Assembly (NCBI GenBank): GCA_029931975.1
Contig: JAOZQY010000002.1
Coordinates: 91,799-138,866, forward strand
Direction of reading: 5' to 3'
DNA from: Bacteroidales bacterium
GTDB lineage: Bacteria; Bacteroidota; Bacteroidia; Bacteroidales; GCA-2748055
DNA: 47,068 bases
Under the pieces are notes generated by a model. The model ran no database searches, was not told where the DNA came from, and saw nothing but the letters and a program-made list of their open reading frames with translations. How positions within the stretch are numbered: the first letter of the stretch is position 1; each line of letters begins with the position of its first letter. The position numbers and the translations under genes are program-made. Positions 23,898 through 31,517 of the stretch are shown one piece after another.

Positions 23898-25265
23898 ATG
23901 ATCCGTCTTTCTATTGTATGGCTTACAGGACTAATATTGCTATTACAGGCAGGCTGCAAAAGTTCCATCAGTGAATCAACAGCTGACCCATGGGTCAGGG
24001 CGGATGAAATCCTAAAGCAAATCCAGGAGCCTGTGATCCCACAGGCGCAATTTAAGCTCTCAGATTATGGTGGAGCGGGTGATGGCATAGCCGATAATAA
24101 AGCGGCCTTTGATAGTGTCATTGAAGCCTGTGAAGCGGCAGGCGGAGGAAGCATCATTGTGGAAGCGGGCCACTACCTGGTGAAGGGACCCATTCATCTG
24201 AAGAGTTCTATGAACCTCCACCTGGAGGAAGGGGCAAAGCTGCTCTTTGGCAATGATCCGGAGGATTACCTTCCGGTGGTACTTACCAGCTGGGAAGGGA
24301 CCCGCTGTTATAACTTCTCGCCCTTTATATATGCCTTTCGGGCTAGAGATGTGGCCATCACCGGCAAAGGGGAAATTGATGGAAACGCTTCGGAGAGCTG
24401 GAATAGCTGGAAGCAACTTCAGGATCCTGATAAGAAGCTGATTCGAAAGATGAATAATCAGGAGGTCCCGCTGGAAGCACGGATCTTTGGGGATGGTCAC
24501 TACCTGCGCCCACAACTGGTGCAGTTCTACGAATGTGAGCATATTCTGGTGGAGGATGTGAAGGTTACAGACTCGCCTTTCTGGTGCCTGCACTTTGTTT
24601 ATTCAAAAGATATTACGGTTCGGGGACTCACTTACGAGGCCTTTAACTTCAACAATGATGGCATCGACCCCGAATCCAGTTCCAACATACTGATTGAGGG
24701 AGTCACCTTCAACAATGCCGACGACAACATTGCCATCAAGGCAGGACGCGACCTGGAGGCCCGCACCCTGGGTATTCCCTCCAGAAATATCGTGATACGC
24801 GATTGTAAATTTAAGGGCTACAATGCCATCGCCGTGGGCAGCGAAATGTCAGGAGGCGTGCATGAAGTGTTTGTTGAAAATTGTTCGTATGCAGGAAAGG
24901 TGATCTATGGCATCTACCTGAAGGGGAACCGGGACCGGGGCGGTATGGTTCATGATATTTACGCCAGGAATATTCTCTTTGATACTACCCGGGCGACAAT
25001 AATTATCGATTCCAACTACAAAAACCAGGGGAGCTGTTGTCCCCCTTTATTTAAGAACATATTCATCGAAAATATCACCGCTACCCATGCCACCGATTAT
25101 GGCATCTTTTTAAAGGGATCACCACAAAAACATCTCGACTCCATCTTTATCAGCGATGTGGAAATCGGATCGGCAACTGTAGCGATCGACACAAGTTATA
25201 CAGACTACCTGGAAATGAAGAATGTGAGGATTGGTACTGAGTTATATGATCAGATAAAAAAGTAA
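23898..25265 (+). CDS. GH28 family polygalacturonase-like lipoprotein
   Basis: 455 residues with a lipoprotein signal (ILLLLQAGC, cysteine 20). The GH28 beta-helix begins with FKLSDYGGAGDGIADNKAAF. Catalytic-site blocks: FNNDGIDPESSSNILIEG with the N-x-D aspartate at 254, NADDNIAIKAG with the DD pair at 275-276, and AVGSEMSGGV near 309-318 in the place of the usual GHG histidine segment. The canonical histidine is replaced by a GSE motif, as in the exo-acting rhamnogalacturonan/glucurono subgroups of GH28. Probably hydrolyses galacturonate-type linkages at the cell surface or periplasm. First gene of an apparent operon: the Nramp-like gene starts 4 bases after its stop. Confidence 0.88.
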   Translation: MIRLSIVWLTGLILLLQAGCKSSISESTADPWVRADEILKQIQEPVIPQAQFKLSDYGGAGDGIADNKAAFDSVIEACEAAGGGSIIVEAGHYLVKGPIHLKSSMNLHLEEGAKLLFGNDPEDYLPVVLTSWEGTRCYNFSPFIYAFRARDVAITGKGEIDGNASESWNSWKQLQDPDKKLIRKMNNQEVPLEARIFGDGHYLRPQLVQFYECEHILVEDVKVTDSPFWCLHFVYSKDITVRGLTYEAFNFNNDGIDPESSSNILIEGVTFNNADDNIAIKAGRDLEARTLGIPSRNIVIRDCKFKGYNAIAVGSEMSGGVHEVFVENCSYAGKVIYGIYLKGNRDRGGMVHDIYARNILFDTTRATIIIDSNYKNQGSCCPPLFKNIFIENITATHATDYGIFLKGSPQKHLDSIFISDVEIGSATVAIDTSYTDYLEMKNVRIGTELYDQIKK

Positions 25266-25269
25266 TTGA

Positions 25270-26514
25270 ATGAATATCTACAAGAAAATAGGTCTGTTTC
25301 TGACCTCCATTGCACCCGGACTCTTTCTGATCGGCTATAACATCGGAACCGGTAGTATTACCACCATGGCCTCTTCGGGAGCTGCCTACGGACTCACCAT
25401 GATCTGGCCCCTGCTGCTATCCTGCATATTCACCTATTTTCTGATTATGCTATTCGGGCGCTATACCTCCATTACCGGGCTTACCATACTAACCACCTTC
25501 CGAAAGTATTTCGGGGTGGGGATTACTGTCTTTGTATTGATCTCCCTGCTTATCAGCGAGTGGGTCAGCTGCATGGGAGTGATGGGCGTGGTGACCCAGG
25601 TGGTGCAGGAATGGTCGAGGCCCCTGACCAAATCGGGAAATGGCTTCAGTCCCATCATCACCGCTCTGATCTTCGGTGCTCTGCTCTACTATCTCTTCTG
25701 GAACGGTCAGCACAAAGTATTCGAAAAAGTACTTGCGGTTTTTGTGGGCATCATGGGCCTTTCCTTTGTGCTTACCATGTTTATGGTAATTCCCGAACCT
25801 GAGGAGGTGTTGCGCGGACTCGTTCCCCGTATTCCCGGGGACTCCGATGCCATGCTGATTATGGCCGGAATGGTGGGTACCACCATGGGAGCCATCCTCT
25901 ACGTAGTACGCTCGATCCTGGTACAGGAGAAAGGTTGGGAAGCCAGTGACCTGAAAGCCGAGCGACGCGATGCCATCGTTTCGGTCTCCATGATGTTCAT
26001 TCTGAGTGTGGCGGTCATGGCCGCTGCCGCGGGAACCCTGCATCCGGCTGGACTCAAGGTTAATAATGCCATTGATATGGTAAAGCTGATGGAACCCCTG
26101 GCGGGACGTTTTGCCATCTCCATTTTTGTGGGAGGTATTGTGGCAGCCGGACTCTCCTCACTGTTCCCCATTGTATTACTGGCCCCCTGGCTCTTTGCCG
26201 ATTTTAGTAACAAACCCCGCAACATGAAATCCACCAGCAGTCGCCTGCTGGTACTCTTCGGGGTGTTGCTGGGACTGGTAGTTCCTGTTTTCGGGGGCAG
26301 ACCGGTAATGGTGATGATTATGTCCCAGGCCATGGCAGCCATCGTGACCCCGCTGGTACTGACGCTGATGCTCTATATCTATAATAAGAAATCGATTATG
26401 GGGGAGATGCGGCTGGGGCTTATCTCAAATATCTCCTTTGCTCTGGTGCTGCTCTTTACCATTGCCATGGCAGTGGCCGGACTCATAGGGATTGCGGGAC
26501 AGTTTAGTGGATAG
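25270..26514 (+). CDS. Nramp-like (SLC11-related) membrane transporter without canonical metal-site motifs
   Basis: 414 residues with about eleven membrane helices. The fold-type signature is clear: TM1 region LTSIAPGLFLIGYNIGTGSI and TM6 region AGMVGTTMGAILYVVRSILV align with the Nramp helix 1 and helix 6. In metal-carrying Nramp proteins these hold DPGN and (A/M)PH; here they read NIGT (residues 24-27) and GTTMGA (203-208), so the aspartate, asparagine and methionine that bind the metal ion are absent. It lies inside a pectin-type operon between GH28 and a sugar-isomerase-like gene, and relatives of this kind are found in carbohydrate loci. A sugar or sugar-acid substrate, or a different ion, is more likely than Mn or Fe; this is inference only. 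Confidence 0.8.
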   Translation: MNIYKKIGLFLTSIAPGLFLIGYNIGTGSITTMASSGAAYGLTMIWPLLLSCIFTYFLIMLFGRYTSITGLTILTTFRKYFGVGITVFVLISLLISEWVSCMGVMGVVTQVVQEWSRPLTKSGNGFSPIITALIFGALLYYLFWNGQHKVFEKVLAVFVGIMGLSFVLTMFMVIPEPEEVLRGLVPRIPGDSDAMLIMAGMVGTTMGAILYVVRSILVQEKGWEASDLKAERRDAIVSVSMMFILSVAVMAAAAGTLHPAGLKVNNAIDMVKLMEPLAGRFAISIFVGGIVAAGLSSLFPIVLLAPWLFADFSNKPRNMKSTSSRLLVLFGVLLGLVVPVFGGRPVMVMIMSQAMAAIVTPLVLTLMLYIYNKKSIMGEMRLGLISNISFALVLLFTIAMAVAGLIGIAGQFSG

Positions 26515-26580
26515 GAAATAGTGCATAGGGAACCGTAGTTCATGAGGCGATAGCCGAGTAAATTCTAAAAAGTGAGAGAG

Positions 26581-27501
26581 ATGGAACGTTTTCATATAGA
26601 TATTGTAGCCAGCTACCTCTATACGATTACCAAGCATGGTTATCCGCCCGTGGCGGGGGATTCGCCGAAACACCTGGATGAGTTCAGCAAGCTGGGATTT
26701 AAAAGTATTGAACTGGAGGGAATCCGGGAAGAGCACCTCCAGGGCATGTACCAGCAGTGGCAAACCTTAAAAAGCAGGGTTGATGCCCTTGATTTGGAGG
26801 TGCCTGTATTTTGTATTGTGTTGCCCGGACTCTGTGCGCCCGGGGCGGCAGAGCGGGAGCTTAACCTGGAGCGTTTTCAGAAGGGTTGCGAGGTGGCCCA
26901 TGCCCTTGGGTCAAAGGTGGTGCTGGATAATGCTCCGCTGCCTCCCTGGCAGTTCCCCGGAGATATTCCCATCACCCGTCACTATGACGAAGATGTACTG
27001 GCTGCTGCCACGATCCCGGCCGATCTGAAATGGGAAACTTACTGGGAGGGGCTCACCGAGACCTTCCGTCAGGCCTGTGATATCGCGGCAGCCCATCATC
27101 TAAGCTATCACCTGCACCCCTGCTACGGTGCCCTGGTGAACTCCACCGATGCCTACCTGCTCTTTGCAGAGGCGGTGAAGCGCGACAACCTGAAATTTAA
27201 CCTCGATACAGCTAACCAGTATTATATGAAAGATAACCTCTTTCTCTCTCTGCTGCGACTGAAGGAGCAGATTGACTATATCCATATCTCCGACAATCGG
27301 GGATCGAAGGTGGAGCACCTGGCCGTGGGACAGGGGAACATTCATTGGGAACCTTTCTTTGAGATGCTGGATCGCATTGACTACAAGGGAATGTTTGGGA
27401 TTGATGTGGGTGGTGATGAATCGGATGTAAGTGACCTGGACGGGGCCTACAGGGATGCTGCCACCTGGATAGAGGATCAATGGTTTAATAAGAGAAACTG
27501 A
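26581..27501 (+). CDS. Sugar phosphate isomerase/epimerase-like TIM-barrel protein
   Basis: About 306 residues from the ATG at 26581 (a GTG at 26572 is the alternative start). No signal peptide, so cytoplasmic. The AP-endonuclease-2/xylose-isomerase barrel is visible: 'GFKSIELEGIREEHL' strand 2 with the first metal glutamate, 'VPVFCIVLPGLCAP', 'GSKVVLDNAPLPP', 'HLSYHLHPCYG', LKFNLDTANQYYMKD, 'IDYIHISDNRGSKVEH' with the metal-binding DxxG/H region, and 'GMFGIDVGGDES'. Likely isomerises or epimerises a sugar or sugar acid released by the operon's glycosidases. Its stop codon overlaps the next gene's start (TGATG), so the two are translationally coupled. Confidence 0.8.
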   Translation: MERFHIDIVASYLYTITKHGYPPVAGDSPKHLDEFSKLGFKSIELEGIREEHLQGMYQQWQTLKSRVDALDLEVPVFCIVLPGLCAPGAAERELNLERFQKGCEVAHALGSKVVLDNAPLPPWQFPGDIPITRHYDEDVLAAATIPADLKWETYWEGLTETFRQACDIAAAHHLSYHLHPCYGALVNSTDAYLLFAEAVKRDNLKFNLDTANQYYMKDNLFLSLLRLKEQIDYIHISDNRGSKVEHLAVGQGNIHWEPFFEMLDRIDYKGMFGIDVGGDESDVSDLDGAYRDAATWIEDQWFNKRN

Positions 27502-30248
27502 TGCGAAAAACACTCATCATCGCCCTGTTGCTGGTACTGAGCATGCCACTCCGGGCCACCGATTTTCCGGTGAGTTCTTATGGAGTGGTGGGTTATGGAG
27601 TGACTCTGAATACAGCATCCATCCAACAGGCCATTGATGCCTGCAGTGCTGCGGGAGGTGGACGAGTGGTGATTGATGGGCGTACTTTCCTTTCTGGCAC
27701 CCTGGCAATCTGGATCACAGGGAGTACCTTTTGCCTGAACGGACAGGAGCGTGTTACCGTGGTACCCTACCCACAGGAGCTAAGTTCATCGGACGGGGAC
27801 TATGTGCCTGTAGGCGAGACCCTCACTTTACGTATTTCGGGTATGGAAGGCGCCACGCTTGCCATTATGGAAAAGCAGCTCCGGGAGGCTTACCAGGAAC
27901 GCTACTCTTTGCAGCTGATCACCGCCAAGGAGGGTAAAGCGGATATATGGATCGGGATCCCTTCGGAAGACGGAGAGCTGATGGAGCTGGCACAAAAAAA
28001 GGGCATGGTACCGGGAGAAGAGCTTGGCCGGGAAGGCTACCTGCTGAAGATTGAAAAGAAGCGCATCTATATCACGGCCAATGCTCCGGCCGGCGCTTTC
28101 TACGGTGTGCAATCGCTTCGGCAATTGCTTCGTGGAAATCCCGAACCATTTAAGGTGCCTGTGCTTGACATTCGTGACTGGCCATCCATGGCCTTTCGTT
28201 GTGTGATGGATGATATAAGCCGGGGACCCATTCCTGACAATGAGTTCCTGAAGAAGCAGATCCGCAGGTATGCGGAGATGAAGATCAACAACATGTCCTT
28301 CTATATCGAGCATGTGGTGGAGACCGGGAAATATCCTGATATGGCACCGGCCGAAGGAGGGATATCCATCCAGGAGTTCAAGGAGCTTTCCGCCTATGCA
28401 GCTAATTACCAGATGGAACTGGTGGGCAATTTCCAGAGTCTGGGCCACTATAGCAAGATTCTTAGTCTGCCCCAGTTCAGGCACCTGGGTGCCACCGAGC
28501 GCATGCTCGATCCCCTGAATCCTGAAGCCATCGATTTCCTGGGAGATATCTACAGGGAGATGGCGCCCGCCTTCAGCTCGAAATACTTTACACCCAACCT
28601 GGATGAGGCCTGGGACCTAAGCCGTGGTGGACTCACCGGGGCTGCAGGGAAACTGGGTCCGGCACGTATCTATGCCGATCATGTAATCAAGGTGGACTCC
28701 ATGCTATCGGCCCTGGGGAAAAGGACCATCGTTTGGGGCGATATAGTACTGGAGCATCCCGAGGTGCTGCAGATGATCCCCGGGCACATCATCATGGGCG
28801 CCTGGAATTACAGTCCATCCGAATCCTTTGCCGAATACATCGATCCCATTGTGGAAGCGGGGTTTGATTTTGTCATTGCACCAGGGGTGCTGAATTCGGG
28901 GCGACTGATCCCCGATTTCAGGATGACTACCACCAACATCCGGAACTTTATTAACGAGGGTTTTGAAAAAGGAGCCCTTGGGGTCTATTTTACCGCCTGG
29001 GACGATGGCGGATTGCATCTTTTTTCGCACGACTGGTACGGGGTGGCTTACAATGCCGAGCAGAGCTGGAGGCCCAACCGCGATCCGCTGGAGGACTTCG
29101 ATCAGCGTTTTAGCAAGGGCATCTATGGGGATCAGAAGAACCTGATACCAGAGGCGCTGCATACCCTGAACCATCTGACCGACCTGGGACCTACCTTCGA
29201 GATGAACTCCAATGTCTTTTACAAAAGCCTGGTTCCCGAACGGGGTAGCAAGCTTACCTTCGATGCAGCCGCATGGCCCGAAGTGAAGCAATGGGCCGGG
29301 GCTTCGGGAGCAATCCTGAATGGAAAGGGGACCAACAGATACAACAGCGATCTGGATTTTATCCGCTATACCATCAGACAATATGCCTTTATGGCCGACA
29401 GCCGCAGGGAGTTGCTTGAAGCCGCCGCAGCCTATAATCGTGCCTGTGTCCTGCAGCGCCATGACCATCCGGGTACCCTGAAAGAACTCCGTAAAGCACG
29501 TGCAATCAGCAGTGAGCTTAAGCAGCGAATGGATCAACTGGCAGCGGGTTTCCTGGTTCTGTGGGACAAGGAAAACCGACTATACTGGCGAGATCATGCG
29601 GCACTGGATTTTGGAAAGCACCAGGATGCCTTTACCAATCAGCTGGAGCTGCTGGATGCAGCCATCAATGCCTTTGAGGCGGGGGCCTACCTGCCCCCAC
29701 CCACCGAGCTCAGACTGGATATCCGGCGCCAGGAGGGACAATTTTTCCAGTACTGGCTGCTGGCAGGGAGCTTTCATCTCGATAGCTTTGACGAATATCC
29801 ACCTGACTTCCTGACCCCCATGGGGGGAGAGGCCCATGCCAGGCCCTTCCCGGGAAAAACCTTTACCGATACCACCGGCACGGAGCGTATGTGGATGAAA
29901 TACGATTCACCCAAGCTGGGAGAGCTGGATTTCCTGACCATATTTGAGCCCAAAATAACAGCAGTGGCCTATGCCTACTGTACCATTGAGAGTCCGGACA
30001 AAAGGAAAGTGACCGCCTTGCTGGGCAGCAACGACGGAGTCACCGTTTACTGCAACGGCAAGGAAGTGCACCATGTACATGGCAAGCGCAGCCTGATTGC
30101 CGATGAAGATGAAATTCCCCTCTCCCTTGAAGAAGGAAAAAACCATATCATGATCAAGGTAGAACAATGGAAGGGGGGCTGGGGCCTGGCCTTCAGACTG
30201 AAGGATGTGGAAGTACGCAGCCATAAACAGAAATATTACATACAGTAA
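27501..30248 (+). CDS. Chimeric ORF: GH28 N-terminus fused in frame to a complete GH20 beta-N-acetylhexosaminidase-like protein
   Basis: 915 residues. Residues 1-19 are a signal peptide; 20-68 are the opening of a GH28 polygalacturonase (FPVSSYGVVGYGVTLNTASI to GRTFLSGTL). At about residue 69 (near base 27705) the sequence switches to IWITGSTFCLNGQERVTVVP, which looks like the end of another signal peptide plus the start of a GH20 N-terminal domain. The GH20 part is complete: GH20b-type domain (about 84-215), barrel from VLDIRDWPSMAFR, the catalytic D368-E369 pair in FTPNLDEAWDL, then 'AWDDGGLHLFSHDWYG' and a C-terminal beta-sandwich ('CTIESPDKRKVTALLGSNDG'). GH20 enzymes remove terminal beta-GlcNAc or GalNAc through substrate assistance. 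The fusion looks like a deletion joining two genes. Both parts keep one frame, so product is possible. Coupled to the upstream gene by TGATG. Confidence 0.8.
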   Translation: MRKTLIIALLLVLSMPLRATDFPVSSYGVVGYGVTLNTASIQQAIDACSAAGGGRVVIDGRTFLSGTLAIWITGSTFCLNGQERVTVVPYPQELSSSDGDYVPVGETLTLRISGMEGATLAIMEKQLREAYQERYSLQLITAKEGKADIWIGIPSEDGELMELAQKKGMVPGEELGREGYLLKIEKKRIYITANAPAGAFYGVQSLRQLLRGNPEPFKVPVLDIRDWPSMAFRCVMDDISRGPIPDNEFLKKQIRRYAEMKINNMSFYIEHVVETGKYPDMAPAEGGISIQEFKELSAYAANYQMELVGNFQSLGHYSKILSLPQFRHLGATERMLDPLNPEAIDFLGDIYREMAPAFSSKYFTPNLDEAWDLSRGGLTGAAGKLGPARIYADHVIKVDSMLSALGKRTIVWGDIVLEHPEVLQMIPGHIIMGAWNYSPSESFAEYIDPIVEAGFDFVIAPGVLNSGRLIPDFRMTTTNIRNFINEGFEKGALGVYFTAWDDGGLHLFSHDWYGVAYNAEQSWRPNRDPLEDFDQRFSKGIYGDQKNLIPEALHTLNHLTDLGPTFEMNSNVFYKSLVPERGSKLTFDAAAWPEVKQWAGASGAILNGKGTNRYNSDLDFIRYTIRQYAFMADSRRELLEAAAAYNRACVLQRHDHPGTLKELRKARAISSELKQRMDQLAAGFLVLWDKENRLYWRDHAALDFGKHQDAFTNQLELLDAAINAFEAGAYLPPPTELRLDIRRQEGQFFQYWLLAGSFHLDSFDEYPPDFLTPMGGEAHARPFPGKTFTDTTGTERMWMKYDSPKLGELDFLTIFEPKITAVAYAYCTIESPDKRKVTALLGSNDGVTVYCNGKEVHHVHGKRSLIADEDEIPLSLEEGKNHIMIKVEQWKGGWGLAFRLKDVEVRSHKQKYYIQ

Positions 30249-30260
30249 ACATATAAAAGC

Positions 30261-31517
30261 ATGAAAAAAGCCATTCGAACCATCGCCATCCTGGCAATGA
30301 TCCCTGTCCTCACGCTGTGCGCAGAGGATGGGGAAAAGGAGAAAGAGCAGCAGGTGCTGCAGGCTCTGCAGGAGACCGCCGACTATGTGGCGGATGTACT
30401 GATCAACGAGAAGGGTTTCTCCCGCTGCGATTATAATATTCCTGAGGGGAAGTGGTACGACTACGAACCACCCTGGCACACCGGTCAGGCCATCTACGCC
30501 CTGCTGGAAGCGAACCGGATTACCGGCAGCAAGAAGTATCTGGACAAGGCCATTGAAGCTGGAAACTGGTGGCTGACATTGGAGATCAAGGACCATCCGA
30601 AGCTGAAAGGGATGGTTCGCTCTGCCCATGGCGACTATGCCGGGCAGACCATCGTTTTTGCAACCATGTCGGACGGGTCGGCCGGACTCTACAAGCTTTT
30701 TGATGTGACGGGCGACAAGCGCTATGGCGATGTGACAACTGCAGCGGGCGACTGGATGCTCCGGAATATGTGTCTGCTCGATGAAGGTGTCTGCTACGAC
30801 AATGTGGACCCCGAAACGGGCGAGGTAATGACCGAAAACAGTCCCTTCTGGCCCGACAAGGAGAACCAGATCCTCTGGGATGTGGCGCGCCCCAACAACG
30901 AGGGCTCCCTCTTCAAGGATATGTATGAGTATACCGGCAATGAGGAATACAAGGCAGCCTTCATCACCCTTTGCAACAGTCTGGTCGACAAACAGGGTCC
31001 CGAAGGACTCTGGATGCATTTTATGCCCAACGACCTGGAGTCGGGCAGTGTGCATCCCCGCTTTAATCTCTGGTATGCCGAGTCGCTGATTGATGGCTAC
31101 GAGCTTACAGGCGATCGGCGATACCTGGATGCAGCTACTCTTACACTGGAAATTTATACGACGTTCCAGACCGGGAGCGGAACCATTTTCTACCAGAACT
31201 TTGTGGATGGATCGCGCGATCGTAGTTCGATTTGCGGATCGGCGGTGGCCTTTTCAGGCATCCTCTGGCTTCGCTTGCAGGAACATGGAGTGCCGGGCTT
31301 TGAAGAGAACATCGAGCTATCGCTGGACTGGATACTGAAGAACCGTTATGCCTCCGACCATCCCGATCCAAACCTGGCCGGGGCAGTGATCAACACCAGG
31401 CTGCGCCATAAAAAGGGCAAGCTGTGGATCACCCAACGGGATGTGGGAAGCACCTTTGGAGTACGCTTCTTATCGGCCTACTACGATTATAACTACGGAG
31501 AGAAGAGTAAGAAATAG
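30261..31517 (+). CDS. Secreted (alpha/alpha)6-barrel protein of a pectin/uronate locus
   Basis: 418 residues starting with a signal peptide (MKKAIRTIAILAMIPVLTLC, cysteine at 20 could be lipidated although the preceding LTL is only a fair lipobox). The rest is helical with paired aromatic/acidic loops: PPWHTGQAIYALLEANRITG, AGNWWLTLEIKDHPKL, 'VRSAHGDYAGQTIVFATMSDGS', 'VARPNNEGSLFKDMYEYTG', 'VHPRFNLWYAESLIDGYELTG'. This is the (alpha/alpha)6 toroid of unsaturated uronyl hydrolases, PL lyases and similar enzymes. I cannot name the family; the gene order (12 bases after the GH20 chimera) suggests action on glycan fragments. Last gene of the operon, convergent with GH105. Confidence 0.65.
   Translation: MKKAIRTIAILAMIPVLTLCAEDGEKEKEQQVLQALQETADYVADVLINEKGFSRCDYNIPEGKWYDYEPPWHTGQAIYALLEANRITGSKKYLDKAIEAGNWWLTLEIKDHPKLKGMVRSAHGDYAGQTIVFATMSDGSAGLYKLFDVTGDKRYGDVTTAAGDWMLRNMCLLDEGVCYDNVDPETGEVMTENSPFWPDKENQILWDVARPNNEGSLFKDMYEYTGNEEYKAAFITLCNSLVDKQGPEGLWMHFMPNDLESGSVHPRFNLWYAESLIDGYELTGDRRYLDAATLTLEIYTTFQTGSGTIFYQNFVDGSRDRSSICGSAVAFSGILWLRLQEHGVPGFEENIELSLDWILKNRYASDHPDPNLAGAVINTRLRHKKGKLWITQRDVGSTFGVRFLSAYYDYNYGEKSKK

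Follow-up and report, generated by a model that had tools for sequence, protein, structure and literature searches.

The gene at positions 27501-30248 on the + strand of the window (the whole stretch of 47,068 nucleotides analysed here, from an uncultured bacterium) is very probably a GH28::GH20 fusion that arose by deletion, with the GH20 protein now using the start and signal peptide of a lost GH28 gene. The fused open reading frame encodes 915 amino acids with an ATG start and no internal stops; an earlier note made from the sequence alone had the coordinates and the single frame right. Among related genomes the two genes are found separately, side by side, in three families, and one relative, of the same genus, carries a second, different in-frame fusion at this gene boundary.

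Structure of the fused gene

Four parts can be distinguished in the fusion protein. Residues 1-19 (27501-27557) are the signal peptide of the lost GH28 gene, recognized in the sequence by a 19-residue hydropathy maximum of 1.71 that starts at residue 4 (cleavage after A19 was placed by inspection). Residues 20-69 (27558-27707) are a remnant of the GH28 mature domain, and residues 69-81, AIWITGSTFCLNG (27705-27743), form a junction segment, now internal, that probably derives from the C-terminal half of GH20's own signal peptide, as judged from the position of its GQ relative to homologues. Residues 82-915 and the stop codon (27744-30248) are a GH20-type protein. The breakpoint lies somewhere in about 27700-27745.

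The earlier note took residues 1-68 to be the opening of a GH28 protein with its signal peptide, and the profile searches agree. Residues 20-69 match positions 49-98 of the 454 in NCBIfam NF049892 (alpha-D-galacturonidase BT4155, GH28) with an E value of 1.5e-8, which identifies them as GH28 N-terminal sequence, and NF049899 (E 1.4e-6) and NF049898 (E 8.5e-4) match the same stretch, ending at residues 68-69. Compared with the intact GH28 of a relative, genome G017, they are 62% identical over 50 residues in an ungapped alignment, and the similarity stops at about residue 70. In Pfam the first 80 residues gave a single sub-threshold pectate-lyase-like match (E 0.039), and it is NCBIfam and direct comparison with the relatives' GH28 proteins that support the GH28 origin. 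A complete GH28 catalytic domain is absent from the fusion: Glyco_hydro_28 was not matched in Pfam at E <= 1, and only about 50 residues align to intact GH28.

The remainder belongs to GH20 by its sequence. Glyco_hydro_20b at residues 86-227 (72.6 bits, cut-off 26.1) and the catalytic domain Glyco_hydro_20 at residues 232-461 (32.1 bits, cut-off 22.3) both pass their Pfam cut-offs, and the protein is 68.6% identical to the G017 GH20 over 834 residues. The pair Asp368-Glu369 in the motif LDEAWD, the putative GH20 catalytic pair, is invariant in a four-sequence alignment. Differences from G017 at codon positions 1, 2 and 3 amount to 0.25, 0.19 and 0.57 of the 834 codons; the GH20 body is under codon constraint.

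All the neighbours are on the + strand. The gene immediately upstream (26572-27501) encodes a xylose-isomerase-like TIM-barrel protein (Pfam AP_endonuc_2, 117.9 bits) and overlaps the fusion by one base in TGATG, an overlap noticed earlier and real in the sequence. It is preceded by an Nramp-type transporter gene (25270-26514; Pfam Nramp, 199.7 bits), by synteny a conserved part of the operon, and by GH28a (23898-25265), a second GH28 gene, for 455 amino acids, whose stop lies four bases before the Nramp gene and whose product, according to Pfam and a genus-wide domain search, is without the PL22-like C-terminal domain of its relatives. Downstream, the gene at 30261-31517 gave weak Pfam matches to GH127, GH88 and C5-epimerase and zero matches in an NCBIfam search; it is conserved beside GH20, with counterparts of 70-80% identity in G017, G012, G011, G010 and G004.

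Gene order in related genomes

GH20 was found in seven of 18 genomes of the genus (E <= 1e-60), seven of 28 of the family (E <= 1e-100), 20 of 393 sampled from the order (E <= 1e-60) and 12 of 395 sampled from the phylum (E <= 1e-120), the window's own genome (G000) being counted in each case. The earlier note attributed the fusion to a deletion between neighbouring genes, and there are relatives in which GH28 and GH20 are separate, adjacent genes. G017 has the TIM-barrel gene, a complete GH28 gene (a 490-codon frame) and then a GH20 gene with its own signal peptide, in the order and orientation of the window; G390 and G198, from two other families of the order, have Nramp, TIM-barrel, GH28 (460 and 526 amino acids, respectively) and GH20 genes. 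These three genomes represent three families, so separate genes look ancestral, and with the locus tree (below) and the outgroup gene order the fused form looks derived.

Elsewhere the GH28 slot is empty or altered. The TIM-barrel gene directly adjoins GH20, without GH28, in G153, G012, G011 and G014, and a beta-helix type gene lies ahead of GH20 in G010. Counted by hand on the locus tree, as losses only and with G010 undecided, GH28 has left this slot about five times (in G153, in G011/G014, in G012, in G004 and in the window). Extra in-frame residues stand ahead of the GH20 signal peptide in G011 (L005:1254-3926) and G014 (L004:50-2842). In G012 the bases around the TIM-barrel stop and GH20 start (L032:7280-7340) resemble the 3' end of the G017 GH28 gene at 14 of 15 positions, a stretch that takes in the stop and start codons; this boundary is perhaps the footprint of a third deletion, a resemblance too short to claim. 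The G017 cluster is followed, at L031:147-2748, by a nagA-like gene, which with 195 bits falls short of the TIGR00221 cut-off of 225.65, and by a gene for a sodium/solute symporter; the pair would fit an N-acetylhexosamine product of GH20.

The deletion would have removed roughly 1.2 kb of a pectin-type operon (a size judged from the intact G017 gene), joining about codon 69 of the lost gene, GH28b, in frame to GH20, the next gene downstream, at its 5' end. Some 400 residues of GH28 would have been lost, together with the stop codon of that gene, the start codon of GH20 and probably the first half of the GH20 signal peptide. GH20 would then be translated from the GH28 start beside the TIM-barrel stop, as GH28 was, and the fused enzyme would be exported by the GH28 signal peptide; cleavage near residue 19 would leave an N-terminal leader of about 62 residues without GH28 activity. 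Counted against the deletion account, the in-frame state is by itself a one-in-three chance. The suggestion that the chimera occupies a new operon position was mistaken, since this is the old GH28 slot: an overlap with the TIM-barrel gene already precedes intact GH28, by four bases in G390 and, from the second ATG, in G017 (the two genes of G198 lie 15 bases apart).

A second fusion

The GH20 frame of G004, another genome of the genus, also begins with GH28 sequence. It reads signal peptide, then ...TTDYLVTDFGAVGD, then RIPVVPYPQEV of GH20, and the G017 GH28 at the corresponding place reads DYMVTDYGAVGD (the two were matched by eye, automatic alignment having left this short leader unplaced). 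The junction in G004 falls some 37 residues earlier in GH28 than that of the window, and the G004 leader retains about 12 mature GH28 residues. On a different contig G004 carries another GH28 gene, of full length, whose product is 53% identical to that of G017.

A locus tree was made from the GH20, TIM-barrel, Nramp and downstream genes of 10 genomes (not all four genes are in each). It groups the window with G017 (support 95/96), and these two with G004 (93/94). On this tree G000 and G004 forced as sisters were rejected (p-AU 0.0095), and G004 and G017 forced as sisters were not (p 0.069). Since the sisterhood of the two fused forms is rejected and the unfused G017 stands beside the window, two separate deletions are the better reading, and the window and G004 probably represent two separate fusion events, an independence that draws on the 10-genome locus tree. 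The G004 junction could formally come from further trimming of a window-like fusion inherited from a common ancestor of G000 and G004, but G017 would then have had to regain a GH28 gene in the ancestral slot, and with the tree against it as well we consider such a single origin unlikely.

The junction

The internal signal-like segment described in the earlier note is present but occupies residues 70-82 (IWITGSTFCLNGQ), a small difference from the note. It is more likely what remains of a shortened GH20 signal peptide, its tail, than a second signal that still works. Among 34 homologue N-termini, 28 have [AGS]Q 2-14 residues ahead of the PxP motif and six do not (the background is 3% of 15-residue stretches in the GH20 body); the window has GQ, which places the start of the GH20 proper at Q82. 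The best 19-residue hydropathy mean here is 1.11, around residues 63-81, as against 1.71 in the N-terminal signal peptide; the GH28 signal peptide is the only strong one in the fusion, and residues 69-81 are too weakly hydrophobic for the membrane anchor once proposed to be likely.

Direct comparisons gave nothing firm on the parentage of residues 69-81. Of 13 protein comparisons the best were with a C-terminal stretch of the G390 GH28 (p 0.033) and with the G010 signal peptide (p 0.086), and of 10 DNA comparisons the best were with the G010 5' region (p 0.069) and the G017 GH28 gene (p 0.115). A GH28 strand with an I-ITG pattern was considered and is not preferred, though the single best score favours GH28; we keep the signal-peptide reading because of the segment's position and the GQ before ERV. 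The ancestral junction sequence is gone, so that breakpoints and microhomology are unreadable and 13 residues lack a clear parent, which we count against the deletion account.

The GH28 remnant

The remnant reads GVVGYG, Tyr32 replacing the conserved Asp of GxxGDG. In a comparison of 25 distinct N-terminal stretches of GH28, counting that of the window, Asp occupies this position in 24, and A or G stands in 24 where the window has V. Because an aspartate kept in 24 of 25 GH28 N-termini has been lost, the remnant is probably a passive leader. Based on only 50 residues, its identity is 52% to G390 and 41% to G198; for the G017 GH28 the values are 60% and 49%, about 8 points higher. The same contrast is 0-1 points for the TIM-barrel protein (62/56 for the window, 63/56 for G017) and 0-3 points for GH20 (52/45 and 55/45). 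Relaxed constraint would show such a pattern of divergence, though the remnant offers only 50 residues on which to see it. At codon positions 1, 2 and 3 the remnant differs from G017 in 12, 15 and 32 of 50 codons. Its low third-position GC (0.42, GH20 0.63) was dropped as a signal, as nearby 50-codon stretches span 0.40-0.74, and an AlphaFold model of residues 20-915 built with four sequences (mean pLDDT 40.0, pTM 0.29) was discarded.

The leader might instead have been kept because it serves the fused enzyme, for instance as a cap that binds glycans or aids folding. It is still open and recognizable in its identity to G017, though most of this may predate the fusion; the lost aspartate, the greater divergence from G390 and G198 and the 12 or so mature residues that G004 retains make such a role improbable, and we favour a passive leader.

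Assembly and age of the fusion

A misjoined contig in an organism that has intact GH28 and GH20 genes is harder still to credit. The genome is a draft of 366 contigs, and all the compared genomes are draft assemblies. The 301 bases around the junction (27560-27860) match only themselves in the genome; with no repeat seen on which a misjoin could have formed, a misassembly driven by repeats is disfavoured. The reading frame continues across the junction, synteny holds on both sides of it, and the contig is 145,637 bases long. The remainder of GH28b was not found elsewhere in a genome rated 96% complete, in which at E <= 1e-5 the G017 GH28 otherwise matches only GH28a, on the same contig. In a different genome, G004, an event of this kind is seen at another position.

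Among 36 homologous loci read, 34 have their own signal-type start (judged by eye) and no GH28-like leader, one (L058) is unreadable and one is G004, whose leader has a different junction; the many homologues sharing the full extension that the earlier note thought would speak for a normal architecture were thus not found. That the long N-terminus is an old architecture later split in G017 can be dismissed as very improbable: the G004 N-terminus is GH28-derived too, but the two junctions differ, complete GH28 genes occupy the same slot in three families, and nearly all homologous loci are without the leader.

Linked loss of the PL22-like domain

In G017 and G012 the product of GH28a, which lies three genes upstream of GH20 in the window, has a PL22-like domain at its C-terminus (PF14583, 40.3 and 37.2 bits, respectively; cut-off 30). 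A search of the genus for this domain matched eight of 18 genomes, six of them at >=72% identity (G017 included), the other two being a weak part-match in G010 and a 49-residue stub with stops in G004; in G000 it was not matched at E <= 1e-5. The corresponding loci are 23898-25265 in the window, L031:10274-12775 in G017 and L034:3707-3853, the broken stub, in G004. Both fusion lineages have thus also lost the PL22-like domain of GH28a, by different lesions. The link between the two losses is not strict, as G012 and G014 lost GH28b and have the PL22-like domain, and n is 2. One tentative reading is that the pectin-backbone modules of this operon have decayed in parallel: each lineage on its own may have deleted GH28b and half of GH28a, the PL22-like part, and in both GH20 may have survived by adopting the start and signal peptide of GH28, since translation there would begin in coupling with the preceding stop codon. 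If true, this "leader capture" would offer operons a recurrent way of discarding one gene while keeping the one after it.

Comparison with known systems

Gene fusion by deletion is usually inferred from its end products. Here the relatives include the unfused pair, two fused forms and several GH28-less lineages, which allows breakpoints, frame and after-effects to be compared and lets a normally invisible step of gene decay be seen twice. For annotators, an N-terminal GH28 match on such proteins would mark a borrowed export signal rather than pectinase activity. No report of this fusion was found in the titles and abstract openings covered by literature searches, which is not proof of absence.

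The fusion of adjacent operon genes is a general mechanism in bacteria, in which two neighbouring co-directional genes become one frame. The present case is like such fusions in that respect; the mechanism, a deletion fusing neighbours, is ordinary, and the case is unusually clear and apparently parallel. It is unlike them in that the upstream partner is almost wholly deleted, its start, signal peptide and some 50 residues being all that is left, so that the outcome is the capture of a start and signal and not a two-domain enzyme. The source of residues 1-69 is a GH28 of the BT4146/BT4153/BT4155 type (NF049898, NF049899 and NF049892; the intact G017 GH28 scores 285 bits to NF049898, below the curated cut-off of 500), and compared with those proteins the window retains only about 50 mature residues. 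The body resembles GH20 beta-N-acetylhexosaminidases (PDB 6jqf and 7ezt, E about 9e-14) in its GH20b and GH20 domains and its putative catalytic Asp-Glu pair, and differs from them in its score of only 32 bits to the catalytic Pfam domain and in a long C-terminal part beyond it; its hydrolysis of N-acetylhexosaminides is putative.
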